From NCBI GenBank assembly GCA_023055505.1, contig JALIRH010000141.1, positions 322,001-386,000 of the forward strand: a stretch of DNA of 64,000 nt. Reading direction: 5' to 3'. The notes under the pieces were generated by a model. That model ran no database searches and was not told the DNA's origin. It worked only from the letters and a program-made list of their open reading frames with translations. The position numbers and the translations under genes are program-made. Positions 14,781 to 54,780 of the stretch are shown one piece after another (positions within the stretch are counted from its first letter, which is position 1; every line of letters begins with the position of its first letter). Source of the DNA: Callipepla californica brunnescens (taxonomy: Eukaryota > Chordata > Aves > Galliformes > Odontophoridae).

Positions 14781-14781
14781 G

Positions 14782-20460: not shown

Positions 20461-20499
20461 ATGTAGGGTTAGGGTTAGTGATAGAGTAAGACTTAGGGT

Positions 20500-26805: not shown

Positions 26806-26820
26806 CTTCTCCCCCTTTCT
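26806..26820 (-). other. polypurine tract
   Basis: AGAAAGGGGGAGAAG on the minus strand, abutting the LTR start. It is the plus-strand DNA primer site of retroviral replication and fixes the LTR boundary. Confidence 0.75.
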
Positions 26821-26849
26821 GTTATGAATATTTTCTTTGTAGCATTGTC

Positions 26850-29811: not shown

Positions 29812-30640
29812 GAGCGCTCAGACCCAGTTAATTGATCCCAACCATTTTTGTACATCGTGTCAATTTTTCACATCAGTTTGTCTTTGTAAGGGCTAGGGAA
29901 TGATAGTCTGGGCTCTGATGCACCAGCCTAAATATTTCCATGGTGATGTTTTCTGCATTTTTTCAGGCGCAATACAGAAACCTGCCGAATTAACAGCAGT
30001 TGTAAGGAGGGCTACTGCTTCCTCCATGATCTCGTGATGTTGCGCGGCCACTAAGATGTCGTCCATCTAATGATACGATAAAACATTTGGCATTGTGTCT
30101 GGAATGGGGCTAAGCACTTTAGCTACATACCACTGACAAATGGTGGGGCTATTTTTCATTCCTTGTGGCAGCACAACCCACTGGTATCTCTGCAACGGGG
30201 CTTGCATGTTGATGCTTGGAACTGAAAAAGCAAATGGAGGGGCATCCTCAGGGTGTAATGGACTATTAAAAAAGCAGTCTTGAAGATCAGTGCCAGTCAA
30301 ATGCCAGTCTCGGGGAATCATAGTGGGTGACAGGAGGCCTGGTTGAAGGGCTCCCATATTTTCCATAGCATCATTCATTTTTCTGAGGTCATGGAACAAG
30401 CGCCATTGACCAGTTTGTTTCTTAATGACAAATCCAGGTGAGTTCCAAGGATTAGTGGAGGTACAGTATGTCCTTTTGCTAATTGTTCCGCTACCAAGTC
30501 TTGGAGGGCGCCAAGTTTTTCTAGCGGAAGGGGCCATTGATCCACCCATCTAGGGGTATCTGTTTTCCATATTAGCTTAAGGGCGCCGCACCTCTCAATG
30601 GCCCCTCCCGAAAATCTGACTTGATAGTGACTCCCCACTG
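29812..30640 (-). pseudogene. broken reverse transcriptase (finger-palm) of the ERV
   Basis: RT copies viral RNA to DNA. The palm contains the first catalytic Asp motif ([11 protein letters not shown]) in the frame 30067-30549. At the catalytic Tyr-Met-Asp-Asp box the Tyr codon is TAG (30067-30069), immediately before ATG GAC GAC, so the active site is cut by a stop. The N-terminal finger part ([18 protein letters not shown]) is in a different frame, 30375-30638, so there is also a frameshift near 30470-30530. Confidence 0.8.
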
Positions 30641-30808
30641 AACCATAACATCAGGGCCCCATAAATATCATCGGAATTGGCAACACAAACGGTTTGATAG
30701 TAGCTACCCGATCTTCAGGTCCTCTGATTGGAATGAACTCAGCACTTTGCTGGCTGTTCCTTGCACCTCCCACCCCAGCTAATGTATGGGATGATTTGTA
30801 TGATGTAA
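30619..30808 (-). pseudogene. ERV protease-end fragment in unit 1 (continuous with the provirus)
   Basis: On minus it reads GGARNSQQSAEFIPIRGP and onward to VLPIPMIFMGP, the end of a retroviral protease-like domain. Here it continues leftward into the RT of the provirus, so this is the source copy. The other four copies (35274-35455, 39927-40116, 44578-44767 and 49433-49614) begin at the same base but lack the rest of pol. Confidence 0.85.
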
Positions 30809-33221
30809 CCCAAAACCAAACCCCAGGCCTACCCCTTCTCTCACCCTGACACTCCAACCAAACCTCCGCCTAAACCTAACCCTAATATCTAAGCCTAAGC
30901 CTAACCCTTCCAATTGCCCTAGCCCTAACACTAACCCTTTTCCTATACCTAACCCTGACCTCAACCCTGATCCTAACCTTTCCCTAACCCTAACACCAAC
31001 CCGTAACATCATTTGAATCCTAATCCTATTCCAAACCTTAACCCTATCCCAAGGCCTAACCCTACTCTGACCTTTACACTCCAACTAACCCAACCTCGAT
31101 CAATAAATACAAATGGAATCCTAAACCTAAACCTAAACCTAAACCTACTGCTAACACCACAAGTCAGCCTACTTTTCTCCCTAAATCTAATCATAAATCT
31201 CAAAAAATCTTTGTCCCTAACCCTAATCATAAATCCAGTCCAAACTCTGAAACTTTCCCAAAACCTATGCCTATTCCTAACACTTACTCTTACCCTAAGT
31301 CTATCCCTAACACTAATCCTTCTCCCAGACACAACCCTAAAGCCAACACTAATCCTAACCTAATCTTTATCCTAATCCTAAACCTAATCCTAACTCTTAC
31401 CCTAATTCTAACTCTACCCTAACCCTAACTCTGACCCTCAAACCAAACCCACATTTAAGCACAACCCTAATCCCGACACCTAGCATCAGATTACCACAAC
31501 CCTAACGGAACCCTAACCCTAACACTAATGCTATGACTATCCCAAACCCTAACCCAAGTACTAGACCAAACCATACCCCTATCCCTCACTCTAAAACTAA
31601 CAACCCTAACTAAACTCTAACCGTAACCCTATCCCTAATACTAACACTAATCATCTTTTAAACACCAATGTTATTCCTATTCCTAAACCTTACCCAATCT
31701 CCAAATGAAATCCAAGGCCGGTGCCTTCTCACACCCTAACGATCAAACCAAACCTACATCTAAACCTAACCCTAAATCCAATCTTTACCCTAAACCATAC
31801 ACTTGCCCTGGCCTTAACACTAACCCTTTCCCTATACCTAACCCTAACCCTAACCTTAACACTAATTTGAGGCCTATCCCTAGTAGGAACCCAAAACCTA
31901 ATTGGAATCTGAATCCTGTTCTTAACCTTAACCCTAACACGACTTAACTCTACTCTGACCCTAAAAGTCAAATGAACCCTACTCCTTACCCTAAACCTCA
32001 ATCTAAACCTAAACCTAACCCTAAACCTAAACTTCACAAGAACACTCAACCTAATCCTAGCACTAACCTAAACTAAAACTAAAACAACTTTTTTGCTAAC
32101 CCTAATCCTAAATCTAACCCTAACCCCAAAACTCCCCCAAACCTGACCCTAAACCTAATCCACCCCCAAATCCTTACCCTAACCCTAACCCCAAACACCC
32201 TAATACTAGAACTAAAGCAATCCTTCACCCTAACCCTAAAACTAACAATTTAACTTTGACCCTAAAACTCAAATTCACCCTACATACACTTTATGCTACC
32301 TAGGTTAGGGTCAGGCTCAATCTGGGTTTTGTGTTGGGGTCAAAGGGATAGGGTTAGGGTAGAGTTCGAGTTAGGATGAAGGTAATGCTTACAGATATGT
32401 TTAGAGAATGGAACAGGGTTAGGGTTAAGGTTAGGGTAAGGTTGAAGGTTAGGCTCAGGGACAGATTTAGGGTTAGAGTTTGGGTTCCTTTTAGGTTTAG
32501 GGATAGGGTTAGGGTACGGTTAGGTATTGTACAACGCTAAGTGTTAGCTTCTGGGTAAGGGATAGGGTTAGGGTAAGGGTTAGATTCAGGGTTAGGGTTA
32601 GCATTAGCATCAGGGTTAGGGTTATGGTAAGAGTTAGGATAGGGAATGGGATACAGTTAGGGTAAGGGTTAGGAATAGGGTTAGGGTTACATTAAGGTTA
32701 GGGTTAGTGTTTGGATCAGGGGTAGGGTTAGGAATAAAGTTAGAGTAAGGGCTAGGATTAGAGTTAGGGTTAGGGTAGGGATACGGTTAGGGTAGAGTTA
32801 AGGTTAGGGTAGGGTTAGGGTTAGGGTAAGGGTTAGGGTTAGGGTTAGGGTTAGGGTTAGGTTAGGGTTTGGGTTATGGTAAGAGTTAGGATAGGGATTG
32901 TGATACGGTTAGGGTAAGGGTTAGGAATAGGGATAGGGTTTGATTAGGGTAAGGCTTATTGTTTGGATTAGGGGTAGGGTTACGAATAAAGTTAGAGTTA
33001 GGGCTAGGATTAGGGTTACGGTTCGGCATTGGATTAGTGTTAGGGTAAGGAGTAAAGTTAGAGTTAGTGATAGGATTAGGGTTAGGGTAAAGTAGGGTTA
33101 GGGGTAGGGTTAGGGTTAGGGTTAGGGTTAGGGTAGGGTTAGGGTTAGGGTTTGGGTTAGGCTAGGGTTAGGGTAAGGGTTAGGGTTAGGGTTAGGGTTA
33201 GGGTTAGGGTTAGGGTAGGGT

Positions 33222-33292
33222 TAGGGTTAGGGTTAGGGTTAGGGTTAGGGTTAGGGTTAGGGTTAGGGTTAGGGTTAGGGTTAGGGTTAGGG
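33222..33292 (+). repeat. perfect interstitial TTAGGG run
   Basis: About a dozen uninterrupted TTAGGG units, much purer than the surrounding array. Similar runs occur at the equivalent place in units 2 and 3 (near 37872-37945 and 42525-42595) and more broken ones in units 4 and 5. The plus strand is a strong candidate for G-quadruplex formation. Confidence 0.8.
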
Positions 33293-35272
33293 TAGGGTTA
33301 GGGTTAGGGTTAGTGTTAGGGTAGGTTAGGGTTAGGGTATGGTAGGGTTAGGGTTAGGGTAGCGTAAGGGTTAGCATTAGGTTTAGGGTTAGGGTTAGGG
33401 TTAGAGTTAGGTTAGGGCCAGGGTTAGGGTTAGGGTTAGGGTTAATGTAGGGTTAGGGTTAGTGCTAGGAATCAATTTGGAGGAAGGAAAAGGTATAGGA
33501 ATTGGTTCATTGTTAGCGTTGGTCTTCAGGGTTAGGGTTCGGATTTAGCACTATGTTTCAGGTTCCTTTTAGGTTTAGTGATAAGGATTAGGGGTACTTT
33601 TAGGTATTGTACAATGCTAAGTGTTAGCTTCTGGGTGGGGGTTGGGGTTAGATTAAGGGTGAGGGTTAGGGTTAGGACTAGATTTAGGATTAGGTTTAGG
33701 AATAGGTTTTCTTTGATTGTTAGGGTGAGAGAAAGGTTAGGCCTTGGGTTTGTTTTTGGAATAGTTTTGGGTTTCAGAATAGGAATTGGGTTAGTATTTG
33801 GAATCTGATTGCTTTAGTATTAGTGTTAGGGTGGGGGTTAGAAGTTAGGTGAGCGTTGTGGTAATCTAATGCTTTGTGTTAGGCTTAGGGTTGGGCTTTT
33901 ACTTGAGGTTGGTGTTAGGGTCAGCTTTAGTTTGAAGGTAGATTTAGAGTTTAAATTGTGGTCATGCTTTGGATTAGTTTTAGAGTTAGGGTAAGATTTA
34001 GGTTTCCTTTCAGTGTTAGGCTGTGAGAACTGTAGGCTTTGTGTTTTTGGGTTTGTGTTGGGTTTAGGAATTGGAATAGTGTTTGGGATAGTATTAGCGT
34101 TAAGGCTGGGGTTAGAGTTAGGTGATGGCTGTGGTAATCTAATGCTTTGTGTTAGGTTTAGGGTTGGGCTTCAATCTGGGGTTGGTTTTAAGGTCCCATT
34201 TAGATTTCAGGAAGAATTGGAGTTAAATTGAGGTAACGGTTAGGATTAGATTTAGGGTTCTGATAAGGGTTAGGTTAGGGTTAGGGTTTGGTTCCAAGTT
34301 GTTTTTAGGGTTAGGGTTAACGTTAGGTTTCAGGATAGGGTTAGGAATATAGCTAGGTGTTAGGTAAGGTTTAGTCCTGGGGTTTCAGTTCGGGTTAGGT
34401 GAAGCGTTAGTTTTACAGTTAGAAGACATGTTAGGGTTAGGGTTAGGTTTTGGTGTAGATTTAGGTTTAGGGTAAGGGTTAGGGATGTAGATGAAGGTTT
34501 AGTGGAAGGGGTAGGGTTCTCTTTAGTTTTAGGACCAGGGAAGGGTCCTAAAAGGGCCTTGGCTAAGGGTGAGTTTTAGTATTTGATTTAGCGTTGCGTT
34601 CAGGTCTAGGTTAGTTTGAGTGTCAGGCTGAGAGAAGGGGTAGGCCTTGGGTTTGGTTCTGGCTTAGTGTTAGGTTTAGGAATAGGAATAGTTTTGGTGT
34701 TTGGATTGGGTTTGGGGTTAGTAGTAGGGATTGGATTGGGGTTAGTGTTAGGTGAGATCTGCGGTAATCTGATGCTTTCTTTGAGGCTTGAGGTTTGAGC
34801 TTAAACGTGGTGTTGGTTTTAGGGTAGGATTTAGGGCTAGGGTTTGGTTGAGGGTAGCATTAGGTTTAGGTTTAGGGGAAGGGTTTTGGTTAGGGTAGAG
34901 GTTAGAATTCTGGTTTGGGTTAGGAATAGGGTTCTGGACAAGGTAAGGATTTAGTCCTAGGTTTCCAGTTAGGGTAAGGTGAAGTGCTGGTGTTCTAGTT
35001 AGGAGAAGAGTTAGGTTGAGGTTTCGGGTTAGGTTTTTTTGTCGATTTAGGTTTTAGGTAAGGGGTAGATTTTAGACAACATGAGCTTTCTGGTCAGAGT
35101 AGGGTTAGGCCTTAGAATATGGATAAGATTAGGATAAATGTAGGGTTAGTTTCGGGTTTAGGTTAGTTTGAGTGTTAGGCTGAGAGAAGGGGAGGGCCTT
35201 GGGTTTGGGTTTGGTTTAGGGTTAAGATAAGGTTTAGGAATAGGAGTAGGTTTGGGGTTTGGATTGGGTTTG

Positions 35273-38200
35273 GACTTGATAGTGACTCCCCACTGAACCA
35301 TAACATCAGGGCCCCATAAATATCATCGGAATTGGCAACACAAACGGTTGCTACCCGATCTTCAGGTCCTCTGATTGGAATGAACTCAGCACTTTGCTGG
35401 CTGTTCCTTGCACCTCCCACCCCAGCTAATGTATGGGATGATTTGTATGATGTAACCCAAAACCAAACCCCAGGCCTACCCCTTCTCTCACCCTGACACT
35501 CCAACCAAACCTCCGCCTAAACCTAACCCTAATATCTAAGCCTAAGCCTAACCCTTCCAATTGCCCTAGCCCTAACACTAACCCTTTTCCTATACCTAAC
35601 CCTGACCTCAACCCTGATCCTAACCTTTCCCTAACCCTAACACCAACCCGTAACATCATTTGAATCCTAATCCTATTCCAAACCTTAACCCTATCCCAAG
35701 GCCTAACCCTACTCTGACCTTTACACTCCAACTAACCCAACCTCGATCAATAAATACAAATGGAATCCTAAACCTAAACCTAAACCTAAACCTACTGCTA
35801 AGACCACAAGTCAGCCTACTTTTCTCCCTAAATCTAATCATAAATCTCAAAAAATCTTTGTCCCTATCCCTAATCATAAATCCAGTCCAAACTCTGAAAC
35901 TTTCCCAAAACCTATGCCTATTCCTAACACTTACTCTTACCCTAAGTCTATCCCTAACACTAACCCTTCTCCCAGACACAACCCTAAAGCCAACACTAAT
36001 CCTAACCTAATCTTTATCCTAATCCTAAACCTAATCCTAACTCTTACCCTAATTCTAACTCTACCCTAACCCTAACTCTGACCCTCAAACCAAACCCACA
36101 TTTAAGCACAACCCTAATCCCGACACCTAGCATCAGATTACCACAACCCTAACGGAACCCTAACCCTAACACTAATGCTATGACTATCCCAAACCCTAAC
36201 CCAAGTACTAGACCAAACCATACCCCTATCCCTCACTCTAAAACTAACAACCCTAACTAAACTCTAACCGTAACCCTATCCCTAATACTAACACTAATCA
36301 TCTTTTAAACACCAATGTTATTCCTATTCCTAAACCTTACCCAATCTCCAAATGAAATCCAAGGCCGGTGCCTTCTCACACCCTAACGATCAAACCAAAC
36401 CTACATCTAAACCTAACCCTAAATCCAATCTTTACCCTAAACCATACACTTGCCCTGGCCTTAACACTAACCCTTTCCCTATACCTAACCCTAACCCTAA
36501 CCTTAACACTAATTTGAGGCCTATCCCTAGTAGGAACCCAAAACCTAATTGGAATCTGAATCCTGTTCTTAACCTTAACCCTAACACGACTTAACTCTAC
36601 TCTGACCCTAAAAGTCAAATTAACCCTACTCCTTACCCTAAACCTCAATCTAAACCTAAACCTAACCCTAAACCTAAACTTCACAAGAACACTCAACCTA
36701 ATCCTAGCACTAACCTAAACTAAAACTAAAACAACTTTTTTGCTAACCCTAATCCTAAATCTAACCCTAACCCCAAAACTCCCCCAAACCTGACCCTAAA
36801 CCTAATCCACCCCCAAATCCTTACCCTAACCCTAACCCCAAACACCCTAATACTAGAACTAAAGCAATCCTTCAACCTAACCCTAAAACTAACAATTTAA
36901 CTTTGACCCTAAAACTCAAATTCACCCTACATACACTTTATGCTACCTAGGTTAGGGTCAGGCTCAATCTGGGTTTTGTGTTGGGGTCAAAGGGATAGGG
37001 TTAGGGTAGAGTTCGAGTTAGGATGAAGGTAATGCTTACAGATATGTTTAGAGAATGGAACAGGGTTAGGGTTAAGGTTAGGGTAAGGTTGAAGGTTAGG
37101 CTCAGGGACAGATTTAGGGTTAGAGTTTGGGTTCCTTTTAGGTTTAGGGATAGGGTTAGGGTACGGTTAGGTATTGTACAACGCTAAGTGTTAGCTTCTG
37201 GGTAAGGGATAGGGTTAGGGTAAGGGTTAGATTCAGGGTTAGGGTTAGCATTAGCATCAGGGTTAGGGTTATGGTAAGAGTTAGGATAGGGAATGGGATA
37301 CAGTTAGGGTAAGGGTTAGGAATAGGGTTAGGGTTACATTAAGGTTAGGGTTAGTGTTTGGATCAGGGGTAGGGTTAGGAATAAAGTTAGAGAAAGGGCT
37401 AGGATTAGGGTTAGGGTTAGGGTAGGGATACGGTTAGGGTAGAGTTAAGGTTAGGGTAGGGTTAGGGTTAGGGTAAGGGTTAGGGTTAGGGTTAGGGTTA
37501 GGGTTAGGTTAGGGTTTGGGTTATGGTAAGAGTTAGGATAGGGATTGTGATACGGTTAGGGTAAGGGTTAGGAATAGGGATAGGGTTTGATTAGGGTAAG
37601 GCTTATTGTTTGGATTAGGGGTAGGGTTACGAATAAAGTTAGAGTTAGGGCTAGGATTAGGGTTACGGTTCGGCATTGGATTAGTGTTAGGGTAAGGAGT
37701 AAAGTTAGAGTTAGTGATAGGATTAGGGTTAGGGTAAAGTAGGGTTAGGGGTAGGGTTAGGGTTAGGGTTAGGGTTAGGGTAGGGTTAGGGTTAGGGTTT
37801 GGGTTAGGCTAGGGTTAGGGTAAGGGTTAGGGTTAGGGTTAGGGTTAGGATTAGCGTTAGGGTAGGGTTAGGGTTAGGGTTAGGGTTAGGGTTAGGGTTA
37901 GGGTTAGGGTTAGGGTTAGGGTTAGGGTTAGGGTTAGGGTTAGGGTAGGGTTAGGGTTAGGGTTAGTGTTAGGGTAGGTTAGGGTTAGGGTATGGTAGGG
38001 TTAGGGTTAGGGTAGCGTAAGGGTTAGCATTAGGTTTAGGGTTAGGGTTAGGGTTAGAGTTAGGTTAGGGCCAGGGTTAGGGTTAGGGTTAGGGTTAATG
38101 TAGGGTTAGGGTTAGTGCTAGGAATCAATTTGGAGGAAGGAAAAGGTATAGGAATTGGTTCATTGTTAGCGTTGGTCTTCAGGGTTAGGGTTCGGATTTA

Positions 38201-39925
38201 GCACTATGTTTCAGGTTCCTTTTAGGTTTAGTGATAAGGATTAGGGGTACTTTTAGGTATTGTACAATGCTAAGTGTTAGCTTCTGGGTGGGGGTTGGGG
38301 TTAGATTAAGGGTGAGGGTTAGGGTTAGGACTAGATTTAGGATTAGGTTTAGGAATAGGTTTTCTTTGATTGTTAGGGTGAGAGAAAGGTTAGGCCTTGG
38401 GTTTGTTTTTGGAATAGTTTTGGGTTTCAGAATAGGAATTGGGTTAGTATTTGGAATCTGATTGCTTTAGTATTAGTGTTAGGGTGGGGGTTAGAAGTTA
38501 GGTGAGCGTTGTGGTAATCTAATGCTTTGTGTTAGGCTTAGGGTTGGGCTTTTACTTGAGGTTGGTGTTAGGGTCAGCTTTAGTTTGAAGGTAGATTTAG
38601 AGTTTAAATTGTGGTCATGCTTTGGATTAGTTTTAGAGTTAGGGTAAGATTTAGGTTTCCTTTCAGTGTTAGGCTGTGAGAACTGTAGGCTTTGTGTTTT
38701 TGGGTTTGTGTTGGGTTTAGGAATTGGAATAGTGTTTGGGATAGTATTAGCGTTAAGGCTGGGGTTAGAGTTAGGTGATGGCTGTGGTAATCTAATGCTT
38801 TGTGTTAGGTTTAGGGTTGGGCTTCAATCTGGGGTTGGTTTTAAGGTCCCATTTAGATTTCAGGAAGAATTGGAGTTCAATTGAGGTAACGGTTAGGATT
38901 AGATTTAGGGTTCTGATAAGGGTTAGGTTAGGGTTAGGGTTTGGTTCCAAGTTGTTTTTAGGGTTAGGGTTAACGTTAGGTTTCAGGATAGGGTTAGGAA
39001 TATAGCTAGGTGTTAGGTAAGGTTTAGTCCTGGGGTTTCAGTTCGGGTTAGGTGAAGCGTTAGTTTTACAGTTAGAAGACATGTTAGGGTTAGGGTTAGG
39101 TTTTGGTGTAGATTTAGGTTTAGGGTAAGGGTTAGGGATGTAGATGAAGGTTTAGTGGAAGGGGTAGGGTTCTCTTTAGTTTTAGGACCAGGGAAGGGTC
39201 CTAAAAGGGCCTTGGCTAAGGGTGAGTTTTAGTATTTGATTTAGCGTTGCGTTCAGGTCTAGGTTAGTTTGAGTGTCAGGCTGAGAGAAGGGGTAGGCCT
39301 TGGGTTTGGTTCTGGCTTAGTGTTAGGTTTAGGAATAGGAATAGTTTTGGTGTTTGGATTGGGTTTGGGGTTAGTAGTAGGGATTGGATTGGGGTTAGTG
39401 TTAGGTGAGATCTGCGGTAATCTGATGCTTTCTTTGAGGCTTGAGGTTTGAGCTTAAACGTGGTGTTGGTTTTAGGGTAGGATTTAGGGCTAGGGTTTGG
39501 TTGAGGGTAGCATTAGGTTTAGGTTTAGGGGAAGGGTTTTGGTTAGGGTAGAGGTTAGAATTCTGGTTTGGGTTAGGAATAGGGTTCTGGACAAGGTAAG
39601 GATTTAGTCCTAGGTTTCCAGTTAGGGTAAGGTGAAGTGCTGGTGTTCTAGTTAGGAGAAGAGTTAGGTTGAGGTTTCGGGTTAGGTTTTTTTGTCGATT
39701 TAGGTTTTAGGTAAGGGGTAGATTTTAGACAACATGAGCTTTCTGGTCAGAGTAGGGTTAGGCCTTAGAATATGGATAAGATTAGGATAAATGTAGGGTT
39801 AGTTTCGGGTTTAGGTTAGTTTGAGTGTTAGGCTGAGAGAAGGGGAGGGCCTTGGGTTTGGGTTTGGTTTAGGGTTAAGATAAGGTTTAGGAATAGGAGT
39901 AGGTTTGGGGTTTGGATTGGGTTTG
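35273..39925. repeat. macrosatellite unit 2
   Basis: Switch point at 36946-36951. Its ERV fragment has an 8-bp deletion (after CAAACGGTT) shared only with unit 5, and shares the CAGCTAATGTATGGG variant with unit 1. Confidence 0.9.
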
Positions 39926-42900
39926 GACTTGATAGTGACTCCCCACTGAACCATAACATCAGGGCCCCATCAATATCATCGGAATTGGCAACACAAACGG
40001 TTTGATAGTAGCTACCCGATCTTCAGGTCCTCTGATTGGAATGAACTCAGCACTTTGCTGGCTGTTCCTTGCACCTCCCACCCCACCTAATGTATGTGAT
40101 GATTTGTATGATGTAACCCAAAACCAAACCCCAGGCCTACCCCTTCTCTCACCCTGACACTCCAACCAAACCTCCGCCTAAACCTAACCCTAATATCTAA
40201 GCCTAAGCCTAACCCTTCCAATTGCCCTAGCCCTAACACTAACCCTTTTCCTATACCTAACCCTGACCTCAACCCTGATCCTAACCTTTCCCTAACCCTA
40301 ACACCAACCCGTAACATCATTTGAATCCTAATCCTATTCCAAACCTTAACCCTATCCCAAGGCCTAACCCTACTCTGACCTTTACACTCCAACTAACCCA
40401 ACCTCGATCAATAAATACAAATGGAATCCTAAACCTAAACCTAAACCTAAACCTACTGCTAAGACCACAAGTCAGCCTACTTTTCTCCCTAAATCTAATC
40501 ATAAATCTCAAAAAATCTTTGTCCCTATCCCTAATCATAAATCCAGTCCAAACTCTGAAACTTTCCCAAAACCTATGCCTATTCCTAACACTTACTCTTA
40601 CCCTAAGTCTATCCCTAACACTAACCCTTCTCCCAGACACAACCCTAAAGCCAACACTAATCCTAACCTAATCTTTATCCTAATCCTAAACCTAATCCTA
40701 ACTCTTACCCTAATTCTAACTCTACCCTAACCCTAACTCTGACCCTCAAACCAAACCCACATTTAAGCACAACCCTAATCCCGACACCTAGCATCAGATT
40801 ACCACAACCCTAACGGAACCCTAACCCTAACACTAATGCTATGACTATCCCAAACCCTAACCCAAGTACTAGACCAAACCATACCCCTATCCCTCACTCT
40901 AAAACTAACAACCCTAACTAAACTCTAACCGTAACCCTATCCCTAATACTAACACTAATCATCTTTTAAACACCAATGTTATTCCTATTCCTAAACCTTA
41001 CCCAATCTCCAAATGAAATCCAAGGCCGGTGCCTTCTCACACCCTAACGATCAAACCAAACCTACATCTAAACCTAACCCTAAATCCAATCTTTACCCTA
41101 AACCATACACTTGCCCTGGCCTTAACACTAACCCTTTCCCTATACCTAACCCTAACCCTAACCTTAACACTAATTTGAGGCCTATCCCTAGTAGGAACCC
41201 AAAACCTAATTGGAATCTGAATCCTGTTCTTAACCTTAACCCTAACACGACTTAACTCTACTCTGACCCTAAAAGTCAAATGAACCCTACTCCTTACCCT
41301 AAACCTCAATCTAAACCTAAACCTAACCCTAAACCTAAACTTCACAAGAACACTCAACCTAATCCTAGCACTAACCTAAACTAAAACTAAAACAACTTTT
41401 TTGCTAACCCTAATCCTAAATCTAACCCTAACCCCAAAACTCCCCCAAACCTGACCCTAAACCTAATCCACCCCCAAATCCTTACCCTAACCCTAACCCC
41501 AAACACCCTAATACTAGAACTAAAGCAATCCTTCACCCTAACCCTAAAACTAACAATTTAACTTTGACCCTAAAACTCAAATTCACCCTACATACACTTT
41601 ATGCTACCTAGGTTAGGGTCAGGCTCAATCTGGGTTTTGTGTTGGGGTCAAAGGGATAGGGTTAGGGTAGAGTTCGAGTTAGGATGAAGGTAATGCTTAC
41701 AGATATGTTTAGAGAATGGAACAGGGTTAGGGTTAAGGTTAGGGTAAGGTTGAAGGTTAGGCTCAGGGACAGATTTAGGGTTAGAGTTTGGGTTCCTTTT
41801 AGGTTTAGGGATAGGGTTAGGGTACGGTTAGGTATTGTACAACGCTAAGTGTTAGCTTCTGGGTAAGGGATAGGGTTAGGGTAAGGGTTAGATTCAGGGT
41901 TAGGGTTAGCATTAGCATCAGGGTTAGGGTTATGGTAAGAGTTAGGATAGGGAATGGGATACAGTTAGGGTAAGGGTTAGGAATAGGGTTAGGGTTACAT
42001 TAAGGTTAGGGTTAGTGTTTGGATCAGGGGTAGGGTTAGGAATAAAGTTAGAGAAAGGGCTAGGATTAGGGTTAGGGTTAGGGTAGGGATACGGTTAGGG
42101 TAGAGTTAAGGTTAGGGTAGGGTTAGGGTTAGGGTAAGGGTTAGGGTTAGGGTTAGGGTTAGGGTTAGGTTAGGGTTTGGGTTATGGTAAGAGTTAGGAT
42201 AGGGATTGTGATACGGTTAGGGTAAGGGTTAGGAATAGGGATAGGGTTTGATTAGGGTAAGGCTTATTGTTTGGATTAGGGGTAGGGTTATGAATAAAGT
42301 TAGAGTTAGGGCTAGGATTAGGGTTACGGTTCGGCATTGGATTAGTGTTAGGGTAAGGAGTAAAGTTAGAGTTAGTGATAGGATTAGGGTTAGGGTAAAG
42401 TAGGGTTAGGGGTAGGGTTAGGGTTAGGGTTAGGGTTAGGGTAGGGTTAGGGTTAGGGTTTGGGTTAGGCTAGGGTTAGGGTAAGGGTTAGGGTTAGGGT
42501 TAGGGTTAGGATTAGTGTTAGGGTAGGGTTAGGGTTAGGGTTAGGGTTAGGGTTAGGGTTAGGGTTAGGGTTAGGGTTAGGGTTAGGGTTAGGGTAGGGT
42601 TAGGGTTAGGGTTAGTGTTAGGGTTAGGGTTAGGGTTAGGGTATGGTAGGGTTAGGGTTAGGGTAGCGTAAGGGTTAGCATTAGGTTTAGGGTTAGGGTT
42701 AGGGTTAGAGTTAGGTTAGGGCCAGGGTTAGGGTTAGGGTTAGGGTTAATGTAGGGTTAGGGTTAGTGCTAGGAATCAATTTGGAGGAAGGAAAAGGTAT
42801 AGGAATTGGTTCATTGTTAGCGTTGGTCTTCAGGGTTAGGGTTCGGATTTAGCACTATGTTTCAGGTTCCTTTTAGGTTTAGTGATAAGGATTAGGGGTA

Positions 42901-44576
42901 CTTTTAGGTATTGTACAATGCTAAGTGTTAGCTTCTGGGTGGGGGTTGGGGTTAGATTAAGGGTGAGGGTTAGGGTTAGGACTAGATTTAGGATTAGGTT
43001 TAGGAATAGGTTTTCTTTGATTGTTAGGGTGAGAGAAAGGTTAGGCCTTGGGTTTGTTTTTGGAATAGTTTTGGGTTTCAGAATAGGAATTGGGTTAGTA
43101 TTTGGAATCTGATTGCTTTAGTATTAGTGTTAGGGTGGGGGTTAGAAGTTAGGTGAGCGTTGTGGTAATCTAATGCTTTGTGTTAGGCTTAGGGTTGGGC
43201 TTTTACTTGAGGTTGGTGTTAGGGTCAGCTTTAGTTTGAAGGTAGATTTAGAGTTTAAATTGTGGTCATGCTTTGGATTAGTTTTAGAGTTAGGGTAAGA
43301 TTTAGGTTTCCTTTCAGTGTTAGGCTGTGAGAACTGTAGGCTTTGTGTTTTTGGGTTTGTGTTGGGTTTAGGAATTGGAATAGTGTTTGGGATAGTATTA
43401 GCGTTAAGGCTGGGGTTAGAGTTAGGTGATGGCTGTGGTAATCTAATGCTTTGTGTTAGGTTTAGGGTTGGGCTTCAATCTGGGGTTGGTTTTAAGGTCC
43501 CATTTAGATTTCAGGAAGAATTGGAGTTCAATTGAGGTAACGGTTAGGATTAGATTTAGGGTTCTGATAAGGGTTAGGTTAGGGTTAGGGTTTGGTTCCA
43601 AGTTGTTTTTAGGGTTAGGGTTAACGTTAGGTTTCAGGATAGGGTTAGGAATATAGCTAGGTGTTAGGTAAGGTTTAGTCCTGGGGTTTCAGTTCGGGTT
43701 AGGTGAAGCGTTAGTTTTACAGTTAGAAGACATGTTAGGGTTAGGGTTAGGTTTTGGTGTAGATTTAGGTTTAGGGTAAGGGTTAGGGATGTAGATGAAG
43801 GTTTAGTGGAAGGGGTAGGGTTCTCTTTAGTTTTAGGACCAGGGAAGGGTCCTAAAAGGGCCTTGGCTAAGGGTGAGTTTTAGTATTTGATTTAGCGTTG
43901 CGTTCAGGTCTAGGTTAGTTTGAGTGTCAGGCTGAGAGAAGGGGTAGGCCTTGGGTTTGGTTCTGGCTTAGTGTTAGGTTTAGGAATAGGAATAGTTTTG
44001 GTGTTTGGATTGGGTTTGGGGTTAGTAGTAGGGATTGGATTGGGGTTAGTGTTAGGTGAGATCTGCGGTAATCTGATGCTTTCTTTGAGGCTTGAGGTTT
44101 GAGCTTAAACGTGGTGTTGGTTTTAGGGTAGGATTTAGGGCTAGGGTTTGGTTGAGGGTAGCATTAGGTTTAGGTTTAGGGGAAGGGTTTTGGTTAGGGT
44201 AGAGGTTAGAATTCTGGTTTGGGTTAGGAATAGGGTTCTGGACAAGGTAAGGATTTAGTCCTAGGTTTCCAGTTAGGGTAAGGTGAAGTGCTGGTGTTCT
44301 AGTTAGGAGAAGAGTTAGGTTGAGGTTTCGGGTTAGGTTTTTTTGTCGATTTAGGTTTTAGGTAAGGGGTAGATTTTAGACAACATGAGCTTTCTGGTCA
44401 GAGTAGGGTTAGGCCTTAGAATATGGATAAGATTAGGATAAATGTAGGGTTAGTTTCGGGTTTAGGTTAGTTTGAGTGTTAGGCTGAGAGAAGGGGAGGG
44501 CCTTGGGTTTGGGTTTGGTTTAGGGTTAAGATAAGGTTTAGGAATAGGAGTAGGTTTGGGGTTTGGATTGGGTTTG
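39926..44576. repeat. macrosatellite unit 3
   Basis: Switch point at 41607-41612. Its ERV fragment is full length and carries the CACCTAATGTATGTG variant shared with units 4 and 5. Confidence 0.9.
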
Positions 44577-47500
44577 GACTTGATAGTGACTCCCCACTGA
44601 ACCATAACATCAGGGCCCCATAAATATCATCGGAATTGGCAACACAAACGGTTTGATAGTAGCTACCCGATCTTCAGGTCCTCTGATTGGAATGAACTCA
44701 GCACTTTGCTGGCTGTTCCTTGCACCTCCCACCCCACCTAATGTATGTGATGATTTGTATGATGTAACCCAAAACCAAACCCCAGGCCTACCCCTTCTCT
44801 CACCCTGACACTCCAACCAAACCTCCGCCTAAACCTAACCCTAATATCTAAGCCTAAGCCTAACCCTTCCAATTGCCCTAGCCCTAACACTAACCCTTTT
44901 CCTATACCTAACCCTGACCTCAACCCTGATCCTAACCTTTCCCTAACCCTAACACCAACCCGTAACATCATTTGAATCCTAATCCTATTCCAAACCTTAA
45001 CCCTATCCCAAGGCCTAACCCTACTCTGACCTTTACACTCCAACTAACCCAACCTCGATCAATAAATACAAATGGAATCCTAAACCTAAACCTAAACCTA
45101 AACCTACTGCTAAGACCACAAGTCAGCCTACTTTTCTCCCTAAATCTAATCACAAATCTCAAAAAATCTTTGTCCCTAACCCTAATCATAAATCCAGTCC
45201 AAACTCTGAAACTTTCCCAAAACCTATGCCTATTCCTAACACTTACTCTTACCCTAAGTCTATCCCTAACACTAACCCTTCTCCCAGACACAACCCTAAA
45301 GCCAACACTAATCCTAACCTAATCTTTATCCTAATCCTAAACCTAATCCTAACTCTTACCCTAATTCTAACTCTACCCTAACCCTAACTCTGACCCTCAA
45401 ACCAAACCCACATTTAAGCACAACCCTAATCCCGACACCTAGCATCAGATTACCACAACCCTAACGGAACCCTAACCCTAACACTAATGCTATGACTATC
45501 CCAAACCCTAACCCAAGTACTAGACCAAACCATACCCCTATCCCTCACTCTAAAACTAATAATCCCTAACTAAACTCTAACCGTAACCCTATCCCTAATA
45601 CTAACACTAATCATCTTTTAAACACCAATGTTATTCCTATTCCTAAACCTTACCCAATCTCCAAATGAAATCCAAGGCCGGTGCCTTCTCACACCCTAAC
45701 GATCAAACCAAACCTACATCTAAACCTAACCCTAAATCCAATCTTTACCCTAAACCATACACTTGCCCTGGCCTTAACACTAACCCTTTCCCTATACCTA
45801 ACCCTAACCCTAACCTTAACACTAATTTGAGGCCTATCCCTAGTAGGAACCCAAAACCTAATTGGAATCTGAATCCTGTTCTTAACCTTAACCCTAACAC
45901 GACTTAACTCTACTCTGACCCTAAAAGTCAAATGAACCCTACTCCTTACCCTAAACCTCAATCTAAACCTAAACCTAACCCTAAACCTAAACTTCACAAG
46001 AACACTCAACCTAATCCTAGCACTAACCTAAACTAAAACTAAAACAACTTTTTTGCTAACCCTAATCCTAAATCTAACCCTAACCCCAAAACTCCCCCAA
46101 ACCTGACCCTAAACCTAATCCACCCCCAAATCCTTACCCTAACCCTAACCCCAAACACCCTAATACTAGAACTAAAGCAATCCTTCACCCTAACCCTAAA
46201 ACTAACAATTTAACTTTGACCCTAAAACTCAAATTCACCCTACATACACTTTATGCTACCTAGGTTAGGGTCAGGCTCAATCTGGGTTTTGTGTTGGGGT
46301 CAAAGGGATAGGGTTAGGGTAGAGTTCGAGTTAGGATGAAGGTAATGCTTACAGATATGTTTAGAGAATGGAACAGGGTTAGGGTTAAGGTTAGGGTAAG
46401 GTTGAAGGTTAGGCTCAGGGACAGATTTAGGGTTAGAGTTTGGGTTCCTTTTAGGTTTAGGGATAGGGTTAGGGTACGGTTAGGTATTGTACAATGCTAA
46501 GTGTTAGCTTCTGGGTAAGGGATAGGGTTAGGGTAAGGGTTAGATTCAGGGTTAGGGTTAGCATTAGCATCAGGGTTAGGGTTATGGTAAGAGTTAGGAT
46601 AGGGAATGGGATACAGTTAGGGTAAGGGTTAGGAATAGGGTTAGGGTTACATTAAGGTTAGGGTTAGTGTTTGGATCAGGAGTAGGGTTAGGAATAAAGC
46701 TAGAGTAAGGGCTAGGATTAGGGTTAGGGTTAGGGTAGGGATACGGTTAGGGTAGAGTTAAGGTAAGGGTAGGGTTAGGGTTAGGGAAAGGGTTAGGGAT
46801 AGGGTTAGGGTTAGGGTTAGGGTTAGGTTAGGGTTTGGGTTATGGTAAGAGTTAGGATAGGGATTGTGATACGGTTAGGGTAAGAGTTAGGAATAGGGAT
46901 AGGGTTTGATTAGGGTAAGGCTTATTGTTTGGATTAGGGGTAGGGTTACGAATAAAGTTAGAGTTAGGGCTAGGATTAGGGTTAGGGTTAGGGTAGGGAT
47001 ACGGTTAGGGTAGAGTTAAGGTTAGGGTAGGGTTAGGGTTAGGGTAAGGGTTAGGGTTAGGGTTAGGGTTAGTGTTAGGTTAGGGTTTGGGTTATGGTAA
47101 GAGTTAGGATAGGGATTGTGATACGGTTAGGGTAAGGGTTAGGAATAGGGATAGGGTTTGATTAGGGTAAGGGTTATTGTTTGGATTAGGGGTAGGGTTA
47201 CGAATAAAGTTAGAGTTAGGGCTAGGATCAGGGTTAGGGTTCGGGATTGGATTAGTGTTAGGGTAAGGAGTAAAGTTAGAGTTAGTGTTAGGATTAGGGT
47301 TAGGGTAAAATAGGGTTAGGGGTAGGGTTAGGGTTAGGGTTAGGGTTAGGGTAGGGTTAGGGTTTGGGTTAGGCTAGGGTTAGGGTAAGGGTTAGTGTTA
47401 GGGTTAGGGTTAGGGTTAGGGTTAGGGTTACGGTTAGGGTTAGGGTTAGGGTAGGGTTAGGGTTAGGGTTAGTGTTAGGGTAGGTTAGGGTTAGGGTATG

Positions 47501-49431
47501 GTAGGGTTAGGGTTAGGGTAGGGTAAGGGTTAGCATTAGGTTTAGGGTTAGGGTTAGGGTTAGAGTTAGGTTAGGGCTAGGGTTAGGGTTAGGGTTAGGG
47601 TTAATGTAGGGTTAGGATTAGTGCTAGGAATCAATTTGGAGGAAGGAAAAGGTATAGGAATTGGTTCATTGTTAGCGTTGGTCTTCAGGGTTAGGGTTCG
47701 GATTTAGCACTATGTTTCAGGTTCCTTTTAGGTTTAGTGATAAGGATTAGGGGTACTTTTAGGTATTGTACAATGCTAAGTGTTAGCTTCTGGGTGGGGG
47801 TTGGGGTTAGATTAAGGGTGAGGGTTAGGGTTAGGACTAGATTTAGGATTAGGTTTAGGAATAGGTTTTCTTTGATTGTTAGGGTGAGAGAAAGGTTAGG
47901 CCTTGGGTTTGTTTTTGGAATAGTTTTGGGTTTCAGAATAGGAATTGGGTTAGTATTTGGAATCTGATTGCTTTAGTATTAGTGTTAGGGTGGGGGTTAG
48001 AAGTTAGGTGAGCGTTGTGGTAATCTAATGCTTTGTGTTAGGCTTAGGGTTGGGCTTTTACTTGAGGTTGGTGTTAGGGTCAGCTTTAGTTTGAAGGTAG
48101 ATTTAGAGTTTAAATTGTGGTCATGCTTTGGATTAGTTTTAGAGTTAGGGTAAGATTTAGGTTTCCTTTCAGTGTTAGGCTGTGAGAACTGTAGGCTTTG
48201 TGTTTTTGGGTTTGTGTTGGGTTTAGGAATTGGAATAGTGTTTGGGATAGTATTAGCGTTAAGGCTGGGGTTAGAGTTAGGTGATGGCTGTGGTAATCTA
48301 ATGCTTTGTGTTAGGTTTAGGGTTGGGCTTCAATCTGGGGTTGGTTTTAAGGTCCCATTTAGATTTCAGGAAGAATTGGAGTTAAATTGAGGTAACGGTT
48401 AGGATTAGATTTAGGGTTCTGATAAGGGTTAGGTTAGGGTTAGGGTTTGGTTCCAAGTTGTTTTTAGGGTTAGGGTTAACGTTAGGTTTCAGGATAGGGT
48501 TAGGAATATAGCTAGGTGTTAGGTAAGGTTTAGTCCTGGGGTTTCAGTTCGGGTTAGGTGAAGCGTTAGTTTTACAGTTAGAAGACATGTTAGGGTTAGG
48601 GTTAGGTTTTGGTGTAGATTTAGGTTTAGGGTAAGGGTTAGGGATGTAGATGAAGGTTTAGTGGAAGGGGTAGGGTTCTCTTTAGTTTTAGGACCAGGGA
48701 AGGGTCCTAAAAGGGCCTTGGCTAAGGGTGAGTTTTAGTATTTGATTTAGCGTTGCGTTCAGGTCTAGGTTAGTTTGAGTGTCAGGCTGAGAGAAGGGGT
48801 AGGCCTTGGGTTTGGTTCTGGCTTAGTGTTAGGTTTAGGAATAGGAATAGTTTTGGTGTTTGGATTGGGTTTGGGGTTAGTAGTAGGGATTGGATTGGGG
48901 TTAGTGTTAGGTGAGATCTGCGGTAATCTGATGCTTTCTTTGAGGCTTGAGGTTTGAGCTTAAACGTGGTGTTGGTTTTAGGGTAGGATTTAGGGCTAGG
49001 GTTTGGTTGAGGGTAGCATTAGGTTTAGGTTTAGGGGAAGGGTTTTGGTTAGGGTAGAGGTTAGAATTCTGGTTTGGGTTAGGAATAGGGTTCTGGACAA
49101 GGTAAGGATTTAGTCCTAGGTTTCCAGTTAGGGTAAGGTGAAGTGCTGGTGTTCTAGTTAGGAGAAGAGTTAGGTTGAGGTTTCGGGTTAGGTTTTTTTG
49201 TCGATTTAGGTTTTAGGTAAGGGGTAGATTTTAGACAACATGAGCTTTCTGGTCAGAGTAGGGTTAGGCCTTAGAATATGGATAAGATTAGGATAAATGT
49301 AGGGTTAGTTTCGGGTTTAGGTTAGTTTGAGTGTTAGGCTGAGAGAAGGGGAGGGCCTTGGGTTTGGGTTTGGTTTAGGGTTAAGATAAGGTTTAGGAAT
49401 AGGAGTAGGTTTGGGGTTTGGATTGGGTTTG
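44577..49431. repeat. macrosatellite unit 4 (longer)
   Basis: Switch point at 46259-46264. About 200 bp longer than units 1-3 because a ~250-bp piece of the G-rich half (near 46730-46970) is repeated at about 46980-47220. Confidence 0.9.
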
Positions 49432-52400
49432 GACTTGATAGTGACTCCCCACTGAACCATAACATCAGGGCCCCATAAATATCATCGGAATTGGCAACAC
49501 AAACGGTTGCTACCCGATCTTCAGGTCCTCTGATTGGAATGAACTCAGCACTTTGCTGGCTGTTCCTTGCACCTCCCACCCCACCTAATGTATGTGATGA
49601 TTTGTATGATGCAACCCAAAACCAAACCCCAGGCCTACCCCTTCTCTCACCCTGACACTCGAACCAAACCTCCGCCTAAACCTAACCCTAATATCTAAGC
49701 CTAAGCCTAACCCTTCCAATTGCCCTAGCCCTAACACTAACCCTTTTCCTATACCTAACCCTGACCTCAGCCCCGATCCTAACCTTTCCCTAACCCTAAC
49801 ACCAACCCGTAACATCATTTGAATCCTAATCCTATTCCAAACCTTAACCCTATCCCAAGGCCTAACCCTACTCTGACCTTTACACTCCAACTAACCCAAC
49901 CTCGATCAATAAATACAAATGGAATCCTAAACCTAAACCTAAACCTAAACCTACTGCTAACACCACAAGTCAGCCTACTTTTCTCCCTAAATCTAATCAC
50001 AAATCTCAAAAAATCTTTGTCCCTATCCCTAATCATAAATCCAGCCCAAACTCTGAAACTTTCCCAAAACCTATGCCTATTCCTAACACTTACTCTTACC
50101 CTAAGTCTATCCCTAACACTAACCCTTCTCCCAGACACAACCCTAAAGCCAACACTAATCCTAACCTAATCTTTATCCTAATCCTAAACCTAATCCTAAC
50201 TCTCACCCTAATTCTAACTCTACCCTAACCCTAACTCTGACCCTCAAACCAAACCCACATTTAAGCACAACCCTAATCCCGACACCTAGCATCAGATTAC
50301 CACAACCCTAACGGAACCCTAACCCTAACACTAATGCTATGACTATCCCAAACCCTAACCCAAGTACTAGACCAAACCATACCCCTATCCCTCACTCTAA
50401 AACTAATAATCCCTAACTAAACTCTAACCGTAACCCTATCCCTAATACTAACACTAATCATCTTTTAAACACCAATGTTATTCCTATTCCTAAACCTTAC
50501 CCAATCTCCAAATGAAATCCAAGGCCGGTGCCTTCTCACACCCTAACGATCAAACCAAACCTACATCTAAACCTAACCCTAAATCCAATCTTTACCCTAA
50601 ACCATACACTTGCCCTGGCCTTAACACTAACCCTTTCCCTATACCTAACCCTAACCCTAACCTTAACACTAATTTGAGGCCTATCCCTAGTAGGAACCCA
50701 AAACCTAATTGGAATCTGAATCCTGTTCTTAACCTTAACCCTAACACGACTTAACTCTACTCTGACCCTAAAAGTCAAATGAACCCTACTCCTTACCCTA
50801 AACCTCAATCTAAACCTAAACCTAACCCTAAACCTAAACTTCACAAGAACACTCAACCTAATCCTAGCACTAACCTAAACTAAAACTAAAACACCTTTTT
50901 TGCTAACCCTAATCCTAAATCTAACCCTAACCCCAAAACTCCCCCAAACCTGACCCTAAACCTAATCCACCCCCAAATCCTTACCCTAACCCTAACCCCA
51001 AACACCCTAATACTAGAACTAAAGCAATCCTTCACCCTAACCCTAAAACTAACAATTTAACTTTGACCCTAAAACTCAAATTCACCCTACATACACTTTA
51101 TGCTACCTAGGTTAGGGTCAGGCTCAATCTGGGTTTTGTGTTGGGGTCAAAGGGATAGGGTTAGGGTAGAGTTCGAGTTAGGATGAAGGTAATGCTTACA
51201 GATATGTTTAGAGAATGGAACAGGGTTAGGGTTAAGGTTAGGGTAAGGTTGAAGGTTAGGCTCAGGGACAGATTTAGGGTTAGAGTTTGGGTTCCTTTTA
51301 GGTTTAGGGATAGGGTTAGGGTACGGTTACGTATTGTACAACGCTAAGTGTTAGCTTCTGGGTAAGGGATAGGGTTAGGGTAAGGGTTAGATTCAGGGTT
51401 AGGGTTAGCATTAGCATCAGGGTTAGGGTTATGGTAAGAGTTAGGATAGGGAATGGGATACAGTTAGGGTAAGGGTTAGGAATAGGGTTAGGGTTACATT
51501 AAGGTTAGGGTTAGTGTTTGGATCAGGGGTAGGGTTAGGAATAAAGTTAGAGTAAGGGCTAGGATTAGGGTTAGGGTTAGGGTAGGGATACGGTTAGGGT
51601 AGAGTTAAGGTTAGGGTAGGGTTAGAGTTAGGGTAAGGGTTCGGGATAGGGTTAGGGTTAGGGTTAGGGTTAGGTTAGGGTTTGGGTTATGGTAAGAGTT
51701 AGGATAGGGATTGTGATACGGTTAGGGTAAGGGTTAGGAATAGGGATAGGGTTTGATTAGGGTAAGGCTTATTGTTTGGATTAGGGGTAGGGTTACGAAT
51801 AAAGTTAGAGTTAGGGCTAGGATTAGGGTTAGGGTTAGGGTAGGGATACGGTTAGGGTAGAGTTAAGGTTAGGGTAGGGTTAGGGTAAGGGTAAGGGTTA
51901 GGGTTAGGGTTAGGGTTAGGGTTAGTGTTAGGTTAGGGTTTGGGTTATGGTAAGAGTTAGGATAGGGATTGTGATACGGTTAGGGTAAGGGTTAGGAATA
52001 GGGATAGGGTTTGATTAGGGTAAGGGTTATTGTTTGGATTAGGGGTAGGGTTACGAATAAAGTTAGAGTTAGGGCTAGGATCAGGGTTAGGGTTCGGGAT
52101 TGGATTAGTGTTAGGGTAAGGAGTAAAGTTAGAGTTAGTGTTAGGATTAGGGTTAGGGTAAAGTAGGGTTAGGGGTAGGGTTAGGGTTAGGGTTAGGGTT
52201 AGTGTAGGGTTAGGGTTAGGGTTTGGGTTAGGCTAGGGTTAGGGTAAGGGTTAGGGTTAGGGTTAGGGTTAGGGTTAGGGTTAGGGTAGGGTTAGGGTTA
52301 GGGTTAGGGTTAGGGTTAGGGTTACGGTTAGGGTTAGGGTTAGGGTAGGGTTAGGGTTAGGGTTAGTGTTAGGGTAGGTTAGGGTTAGGGTATGGTAGGG

Positions 52401-54326
52401 TTAGGGTTAGGGTAGGGTAAGGGTTAGCATTAGGTTTAGGGTTAGGGTTAGGGTTAGAGTTAGGTTAGGGCTAGGGTTAGGGTTAGGGTTAGGGTTAATG
52501 TAGGGTTAGGGTTAGTGCTAGGAATCAATTTGGAGGAAGGAAAAGGTATAGGAATTGGTTCATTGTTAGCGTTGGTCTTCAGGGTTAGGGTTCGGATTTA
52601 GCACTATGTTTCAGGTTCCTTTTAGGTTTAGTGATAAGGATTAGGGGTACGTTTAGGTATTGTACAATGCTAAGTGTTAGCTTCTGGGTGGGGGTTGGGT
52701 TAGATTAAGGGTGAGGGTTAGGGTTAGAACTAGATTTAGGATTAGGTTTAGGAATAGGTTTTCTTTGATTGTTAGGGTGAGAGAAAGGTTAGGCCTTGGG
52801 TTTGTTTTTGGAATAGTTTTGGGTTTCAGAATAGGAATTGGGTTAGTATTTGGAATCTGATTGTTTTAGTATTAGTGTTAGGGTGGGGGTTAGAAGTTAG
52901 GTGAGCGTTGTGGTAATCTAATGCTTTGTGTTAGGCTTAGGGTTGGGCTTTTACTTGAGGTTGGTGTTAGGGTCAGCTTTAGTTTGAAGGTAGATTTAGA
53001 GTTTAAATTGTGGTCATGCTTTGGATTAGTTTTAGAGTTAGGGTAAGATTTAGGTTTCCTTTCAGTGTTAGGCTGTGAGAATTGTAGGCTTTGTGTTTTT
53101 GGGTTTGTGTTGGGTTTAGGAATTGGAATAGTGTTTGGGATAGTATTAGCGTTAAGGCTGGGGTTAGAGTTAGGTGATGGCTGTGGTAATCTAATGCTTT
53201 GTGTTAGGTTTAGGGTTGGGCTTCAATCTGGGGTTGGTTTTAAGGTCCCATTTAGATTTCAGGAAGAATTGGAGTTCAATTGAGGTAACGGTTAGGATTA
53301 GATTTAGGGTTCTGATAAGGGTTAGGTTAGGGTTAGGGTTTGGTTCCAAGTTGTTTTTAGGGTTAGGGTTAACGTTAGGTTTCAGGATAGGGTTAGGAAT
53401 ATAGCTAGGTGTTAGGTAAGGTTTAGTCCTGGGGTTTCAGTTCGGGTTAGGTGAAGCGTTAGTTTTACAGTTAGAAGACATGTTAGGGTTAGGGTTAGGT
53501 TTTGGTGTAGATTTAGGTTTAGGGTAAGGGTTAGGGATGTAGATGAAGGTTTAGTGGAAGGGGTAGGGTTCTCTTTAGTTTTAGGACCAGGGAAGGGTCC
53601 TAAAAGGGCCTTGGCTAAGGGTGAGTTTTAGTATTTGATTTAGCGTTGCGTTCAGGTCTAGGTTAGTTTGAGTGTCAGGCTGAGAGAAGGGGTAGGCCTT
53701 GGGTTTGGTTCTGGCTTAGTGTTAGGTTTAGGAATAGGAATAGTTTTGGTGTTTGGATTGGGTTTGGGGTTAGTAGTAGGGATTGGATTGGGGTTAGTGT
53801 TAGGTGAGATCTGCGGTAATCTGATGCTTTCTTTGAGGCTTGAGGTTTGAGCTTAAACGTGGTGTTGGTTTTAGGGTAGGATTTAGGGCTAGGGTTTGGT
53901 TGAGGGTAGCATTAGGTTTAGGTTTAGGGGAAGGGTTTTGGTTAGGGTAGAGGTTAGAATTCTGGTTTGGGTTAGGAATAGGGTTCTGGACAAGGTAAGG
54001 ATTTAGTCCTAGGTTTCCAGTTAGGGTAAGGTGAAGTGCTGGTGTTCTAGTTAGGAGAAGAGTTAGGTTGAGGTTTCGGGTTAGGTTTTTTTTGTCGATT
54101 TAGGTTTTAGGTAAGGGGTAGATTTTAGACAACATGAGCTTTCTGGTCAGAGTAGGGTTAGGCCTTAGAATATGGATAAGATTAGGATAAATGTAGGGTT
54201 AGTTTCGGGTCTAGGTTAGTTTGAGTGTTAGGCTGAGAGAAGGGGAGGGCCTTGGGTTTGGGTTTGGTTTAGGGTTAAGATAAAGTTTAGGAATAGGAGT
54301 AGGTTTGGGGTTTTGATTGGGTTTGG
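49432..54326. repeat. macrosatellite unit 5 (last)
   Basis: Switch point at 51106-51111. It shares unit 4's internal duplication (near 51575-52080) and unit 2's 8-bp ERV deletion. It is not followed by an ERV fragment: after GGGTTTGG at 54326 the sequence continues into GTTAGCTTTAGTGC. Confidence 0.9.
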
Positions 54327-54780
54327 GTTAGCTTTAGTGCTAGGTTTTGGTATTGGTTTCGAGTTAGGTGAGGGTTGTGGTAATCTGATGCTTTGTTCAA
54401 GTTTTAGGGTTGGGCTTCAATTTGGGTTTTGGATTAGGATCAGAGTTAGGGATAGCTTGAAGGTAGAGTTAGGATTCGGCTAATAGCTACAGTGATTCTT
54501 ATGGAGACGATTTGGGTCAAGGGTAAGTATTAGGCTTAGCTTTAGATTTAGAGTTAGCTTTAGGTTTAGGATTAGAGTTGTGGTTTTGGTTGGGAGTAGG
54601 GTTAGTGCTAGGTTTGAGGTTAGGGTTAGGGTTAGGTTTAGCATTTCAAGTAAGGCTTAGGGTTATGCTTAGGTTGAGGTTGAGGGTTAGGTTGTGAGTT
54701 AGGGCAAAGATTGTGGATAGGGTAAAGGTTGGAGCTTGGATTAGGTTTCGGGTTAGCAATAGTCTTAGGTGTCATTTCTC
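54327..54780 (+). repeat. single-copy flank of the macrosatellite
   Basis: Continues the G-rich TTAGGG-like style (TTTAGGTTTAGGATTAG) but is not repeated in the array, so it is the native right flank. It ends near GTGTCATTTCTCCTG, where the 591-bp satellite begins. No gene is seen. Confidence 0.7.

Follow-up and report, generated by a model that had tools for sequence, protein, structure and literature searches.

A tandem array in Callipepla californica brunnescens whose units carry a retroviral protease fragment and degenerate telomere-like DNA, adjacent to the parent provirus

The truncated provirus and the adjacent array

The window, that is, the whole 64-kb stretch of DNA that was analysed, contains a truncated provirus on the minus strand (26439-30808) in which remnants of protease, reverse transcriptase (RT), integrase, env and one LTR-like end follow one another in order (Table 1). 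Among the best 120 of 319 RT homologues, all named matches came from birds, the best named one being that of Nothoprocta ornata (76%) and an unnamed one reaching 80%. Among the 74 env matches, those with a name were also from birds except for one tortoise, and the top-scoring named relative stood at 60%. Bird relatives of both pol and env, together with the PR-RT-IN-env order, identify the element as an avian endogenous retrovirus (ERV), and the POK and ERV-K names of its RT relatives suggest class II. The 375-aa env frame of this old provirus is still open, although pol is split across several frames.

The block at 26439-26805 reads as an LTR from its sequence features and is regarded as putative. 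A block search of this LTR-like end found no second copy in the window. A complete provirus would have two LTRs and gag; here the LTR block occurs once, and the sequence past mid-protease is telomere-like. The remainder of the ERV (26439-30617, minus 26841-26851 and 27980-28011) was searched as five blocks, each of which matched only itself, and these tested blocks outside the protease piece are single copy in the window. A 10-bp minisatellite (GACCCACAGC, 24464-26423) directly abuts the LTR-like end; within it a longer non-repeat block recurs at least twice, near 26000 and 26312.

Self-BLAST of the window returned a single stretch of direct repetition at this locus, in which 30618-49432 pairs with 35273-54326; it corresponds to five head-to-tail units in the assembled sequence (30618-54325). 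We cut the units at the ERV edge, at positions 30618, 35273, 39926, 44577, 49432 and 54326. All 10 pairs were 99.22-99.78% identical with gaps excluded; the extra length of units 4 and 5 is mainly a 258-bp stretch. Five copies of 4.65 kb at 99% identity need no chance expectation for the array as a whole. The locus thus holds a composite tandem array, with near-identical head-to-tail units and a retroelement-derived part.

These results bear out the original prediction, with refinements. It had described units of ~4.65 kb each opening with a common ERV piece and had proposed self-alignment of the window as a check. Its extent of 30619 to 54326 and its piece of ~190 bp were right in essence; the array ends at 54325, and two copies of the piece, those of units 2 and 5, measure 183 bp. 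The prediction had also called the array a macrosatellite. Macrosatellites are tandem units above ~1 kb, present in tens to hundreds of copies whose number is polymorphic. The unit size (4651-4894 bp) fits this label; five copies within one window make a small tandem array, and a genome-wide, high-copy macrosatellite is not demonstrated.

Table 1 Features of the locus (positions in the window)
Feature	Position	Strand	Remarks
Older paralogue of a G-rich arm segment (33645-34536)	21435..22054	+	89.2% over 361 bp, 95.4% over 481 bp; left of the ERV
LTR-like end (putative 3' LTR)	26439..26805	-	TG start after polypurine tract 26806-26818, CA end at 26439
env frame, avian gp85 type, 375 aa	26852..27979	-	Pfam PF03708, E 1.2e-9; 74 homologues
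Integrase pieces, separate frames	28012..28666	-	Pfam profiles for core and DNA-binding domain
Integrase DNA-binding domain	28012..28284	-	Pfam PF00552, E 2.6e-8
Integrase rve core	28370..28666	-	Pfam PF00665, E 5e-17
pol piece, RT thumb similarity	29137..29811	-	Pfam PF06817, E 4.9e-5, 23.5 bits, below the cut-off of 27.6
Reverse transcriptase piece	30067..30549	-	Pfam PF00078, E 5e-20; 319 homologues
Protease fragment of unit 1	30618..30808	-	191 bp; continuous with the provirus
Unit 1	30618..35272	+	4655 bp
C-rich (CCCTAA-like) arm, unit 1	30809..32303	+	Up to a sharp strand switch
G-rich (TTAGGG-like) arm, unit 1	32304..35272	+	Hexamer counts versus shuffles
Junction created by the duplication, joining G-rich DNA with pol	35272..35273	.	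Recurs at 39925/39926, 44576/44577, 49431/49432
Unit 2	35273..39925	+	4653 bp; protease fragment 35273-35455, with 8-bp deletion
Unit 3	39926..44576	+	4651 bp; protease fragment 39926-40116
Unit 4	44577..49431	+	4855 bp; protease fragment 44577-44767; has the 258-bp stretch
Unit 5	49432..54325	+	4894 bp; protease fragment 49432-49614; has the 258-bp stretch
Native right edge, telomere-like DNA outside the repeated unit	54326..54770	+	G-rich DNA continues past unit 5

Composition of the unit and its surroundings

Each unit consists of the protease piece, a C-rich arm of ~1.5 kb, a strand switch and a G-rich arm of ~3 kb. The piece makes up ~4% of the unit. Searching the window with the 191-bp copy of unit 1 (30618-30808) recovered five copies at 100, 98.95, 98.43, 95.81 and 94.24% identity, the two least identical being those of units 2 and 5, which share an 8-bp deletion. 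Further matches in the window were only 15-16 bp long, with E values of 1.4 or worse. A 51-aa frame at 30654-30806(-) matched solved retroviral proteases (best 1nso, E 0.002); against the Pfam RVP profile it scored E 0.036 and 14.8 bits, below the 20.7-bit cut-off. The matches are weak because only half a domain survives. They are nevertheless specific and, with the position directly upstream of RT in agreement, argue that the short piece is retroviral protease. The short frame adjoining it, 30575-30667(-), had no Pfam match.

Both arms are decayed telomere-like DNA. The C-rich tract (30810-32250, 1441 bp) has 184 C-strand hexamer positions compared with 11.7 in shuffles, with a longest perfect run of 12 bp; the G-rich tract (32415-35272) has 603 G-strand positions compared with 25.6, with a longest perfect run of 72 bp. 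In unit 1 the switch from C-rich to G-rich lies near 32303/32304, around an 8-bp palindrome (ACCTAGGT), and no column there varies among units. GC skew along the array swings from about -0.77 to +0.86 in 1-kb windows. TAGGGTTA sites number 67-74 on one strand of each unit and 16-17 on its other strand, with none in 26439-30617, and binding of telomere proteins to the units is plausible from these motifs.

The arms stand in inverted orientation to each other and align at 65-72% (best 12 matches). A specific palindrome of the two arms was rejected, since the C-rich arm aligns equally well with the separate telomere-like block at 14781-22060 (65-66% over longer stretches with equally high scores; best 8 matches). 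Other telomere-like pairs gave 64-68% over long stretches and 66-85% over shorter ones (75-616 bp). We take the inverted-arm similarity as likely to reflect general similarity of telomere motifs. The segment touching the ERV, 30810-30908, has an inverted match at 21452-21549 in the left flank, with 80.8% identity across 99 bp, above most such pairs. This match counts against a purely general motif similarity and may mark an old inverted duplication.

The surroundings are also repetitive. Degenerate minisatellites occupy 312-9031 (11-bp unit and multiples, AGCTGCCCCAT) and, in three stretches, 9056-14778 (8-bp unit, TGACATTC). The former is interrupted near 4187-5031 by a GC-rich island (68.7% GC in 4001-5000), possibly a gene or promoter remnant. 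They are followed at 14781-20592 by 5.8 kb of one-stranded, degenerate TTAGGG-like DNA with 401 exact TTAGGG and no CCCTAA. The paralogue at 21435-22054 is less similar to the G-rich arm than the units are to one another and is therefore older than the array. The unit contains two matches to one segment of this paralogue, and so would itself include another small duplication.

Immediately beyond the right end of the array, a satellite with a ~590-bp monomer starts at about 54796 and reaches the window end at 64000. Offsets of ~1765 and ~3540 bp align at 92-93% and offsets of one or two monomers at ~79-80%, which indicates a higher-order period of three monomers. This higher-order satellite is a centromere candidate; a scan of the window with the CENP-B box pattern found no box on either strand. 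The array is therefore placed between telomere-like blocks and a higher-order satellite.

Proposed birth of the array and probable exchange between its units

The ERV/C-rich junction (30808|30809) was found in all five units and is therefore older than the duplication. The G-rich/ERV junction falls on the identical base at all four internal boundaries. At the left edge of unit 1 the ERV runs on uninterrupted, and at the right edge the G-rich DNA continues beyond unit 5, so that both outer edges are native. All six boundaries are accounted for, with one new joint, by a single duplication that reached from 30618 in pol to 35272 in the G-rich DNA. At the breakpoint the native edges have 1 bp (G) in common, and homology therefore did not guide the joint. 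LTR-LTR recombination was rejected as a cause, the LTR block having no copy in the units.

According to the original prediction, the ERV was first joined to telomere-like DNA; the unit then arose by a tandem duplication, one of whose breakpoints lay in pol, and finally expanded. Three consequences of that order of events, namely a shared ERV/C-rich junction, an internal junction at one and the same base and native outer edges, were all observed. Continuity of the protease/RT-boundary fragment of unit 1 with the provirus was likewise confirmed at the sequence level, and the parent element does lie next to its amplified derivative, directly left of unit 1.

The following course of events may be proposed. 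A minus-strand avian class II ERV, cut mid-protease, would already have been joined by its broken end to a degenerate telomere-like block. A non-homologous event, presumably end joining or template switching, would then have connected a position within the G-rich arm back to the ERV, 191 bp from its broken end, and so duplicated ~4.65 kb. The two near-identical head-to-tail copies could have grown to five by unequal exchange, the presumed expansion step, which together with gene conversion would have shuffled the variants, the ERV piece being carried along as a passenger. We consider it highly probable that the array arose in this way, by tandem duplication in place followed by expansion to five copies through exchange.

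Variation among the units was examined for traces of such exchange. Private substitutions numbered 17 in unit 5, 9 in unit 4, 7 in unit 3 and 2 each in units 2 and 1, and units 4 and 5 have in common the 258-bp length difference and 8 substitutions. Over 19 informative characters, 64 of 171 pairs failed the four-gamete test and the best five-unit tree required 6 extra steps. One of these characters is an unsafe 6-bp indel that lies within larger gaps; a hand count that drops it leaves 58 incompatible pairs among 153 and 5 extra steps. The protease piece gives an example: the 8-bp deletion groups units 2 and 5, and at a distance of 75-94 columns two substitutions unite units 3, 4 and 5. Where the 8 bp are present, the reading still aligns with solved proteases, while the unit 2 open reading frame (ORF) through the deletion departs from it, and the deletion is thus the derived state. 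The conflicting site patterns point to exchange between units as their simplest reading, and recurrent mutation in the telomere-like repeats could mimic part of this signal. At a neutral bird substitution rate, the pairwise differences of 0.2-0.8% would place the last common sequence of the copies some 0.5-2 million years ago; because exchange resets the clock, the array itself may be older.

Another route to the same structure is excision of the 4.65-kb segment as a circle, rolling-circle amplification and re-insertion by homology at the source. This would leave the same junctions and edges, the two edges being equally compatible with a re-entered circle, and such a route has been proposed for satellites generally in the available text of PMC8122249 and PMC3648361. 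We found no direct trace of it; it needs more steps than duplication in place, and the conflicting variant patterns do not demand circles. We regard it as improbable. Multiplication of one or two real units by the assembler, which might be suspected in a region where telomere-like repeats and minisatellites surround the array, is more doubtful still, given that all five units are told apart by their private substitutions and that units 4 and 5 share a length difference.

Truncation of the ERV exactly at a telomere-like tract might suggest chromosome healing, with telomere repeats added to the broken ERV end. In de novo telomere addition the G-strand runs outward from the broken end, giving ERV|TTAGGG and CCCTAA|ERV. 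Both junctions have the opposite orientation (ERV|CCCTAA-like at 30808 and TTAGGG-like|ERV at 35273), and the C-rich tract is degenerate, as described above. Unless a later inversion is assumed, orientation refutes this explanation, and we consider it very unlikely.

Equally unlikely is that selection kept the ERV piece, for instance as a regulatory or coding part, and that the piece drives the amplification. The piece is present in all five units. Minus-strand stops occur in all three of its frames in units 1, 3 and 4; the 183-bp copies of units 2 and 5 each have one minus-strand frame that is stop-free throughout, and in unit 2 it falls within a 109-aa ORF. We read this frame as a probable frame shift, a by-product of the 8-bp deletion, which itself falls in the part alignable with solved proteases. 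The piece is not less variable than the remainder of the unit (4 variable sites of 191 compared with 47 of 4464; Fisher p 0.16), and the units hold no copy of the LTR block. Five ORFs of at least 90 aa overlap 30810-35272 and appear by eye to be translated repeat or shifted protease. No known RNA family matched in the window at the gathering threshold. The array most likely has no selected function, and the ERV piece looks like a passenger in the unit.

Relation to known satellites and significance

Several known repeats resemble this array in part. Sobo of wild potato is likewise a tandem composite monomer of similar size (4.7 kb), with LTR-retrotransposon-related and other sequence (PMC3648361, PMC6947457). 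In contrast with our array of five copies, with its internal protease piece and adjacent parent element, Sobo is a plant array of ~360 kb that resembles Sore1 LTRs, and the available text of PMC3648361 mentions no telomere-like arms. For maize CRM1TR and CRM4TR, the proposed origin is illegitimate recombination, with non-allelic gene conversion as the primary means of amplification and homogenisation, a route like the one considered here; they derive wholly from LTR/UTR parts of centromeric retrotransposons, whereas retroelement sequence is a minor part of our unit (PMC3648361, as excerpted). Rodent RPCS is also a vertebrate satellite similar to retroviral sequence, but has a 348-bp monomer resembling the U3 of an LTR, rather than a protease piece in a unit of 4.65 kb (same source).

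In chicken, the centromere core of chromosome 32 contains three tandem full-length Kronos_I ERVs, and that of seven other chromosomes consists of telomeric repeats (PMC9974502, in the portion available). The Kronos_I trio is again bird ERV sequence in tandem, but with whole ERVs, no telomere-like unit and mapped CENP-A. The chicken HinfI and Cen satellites are bird tandem repeats with embedded retroelement fragments, from CR1 rather than from an ERV according to the available text of PMC6947457. Interstitial telomeric sequences share with our array telomere-motif DNA inside chromosomes; here the motif is degenerate, in opposed C-rich and G-rich arms, and part of a 4.65-kb unit with a retroviral piece.

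The original prediction knew of no named satellite of such composition. We found no report of one combining an ERV protease piece with telomere-like arms among the open-licence papers listed, which is weak evidence of absence, and an equivalent array is undescribed in the available text of PMC9974502, PMC4992247, PMC6947457, PMC3648361, PMC9656864, PMC12651973, PMC8122249 and PMC8310711. Composite retroelement satellites as such are already known. The array behaves like these and belongs to the established broad kind of composite satellites with retroelement pieces, rather than to a new class. A 24-base sequence across the G-rich/pol junction had no exact match among viral contigs and prokaryote genomes, a result of little weight.

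The composition of the array and its adjacent parent locus make it a good specimen, a clear example of a familiar route of repeat-array birth, and probably a recent one. Satellite arrays are usually met long after their origin, when the parent sequence and the first junction are gone. In the present case a young array is still accompanied by its parent provirus, the duplication breakpoint and the native edges on both sides, so that a near-blunt joining followed by exchange between units can be read from the sequence. The G-rich/pol junction also provides a ready copy-number probe in a telomere-like context where ordinary probes are expected to cross-hybridise. It is possible, though we hold it only tentatively and think it rather unlikely, that a satellite family has been caught at birth, with a changing seed beside a higher-order satellite, a copy number that varies between individuals and protease-tagged copies elsewhere. 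If so, the ERV piece would date the family and track its spread through chromosome ends or centromeres.
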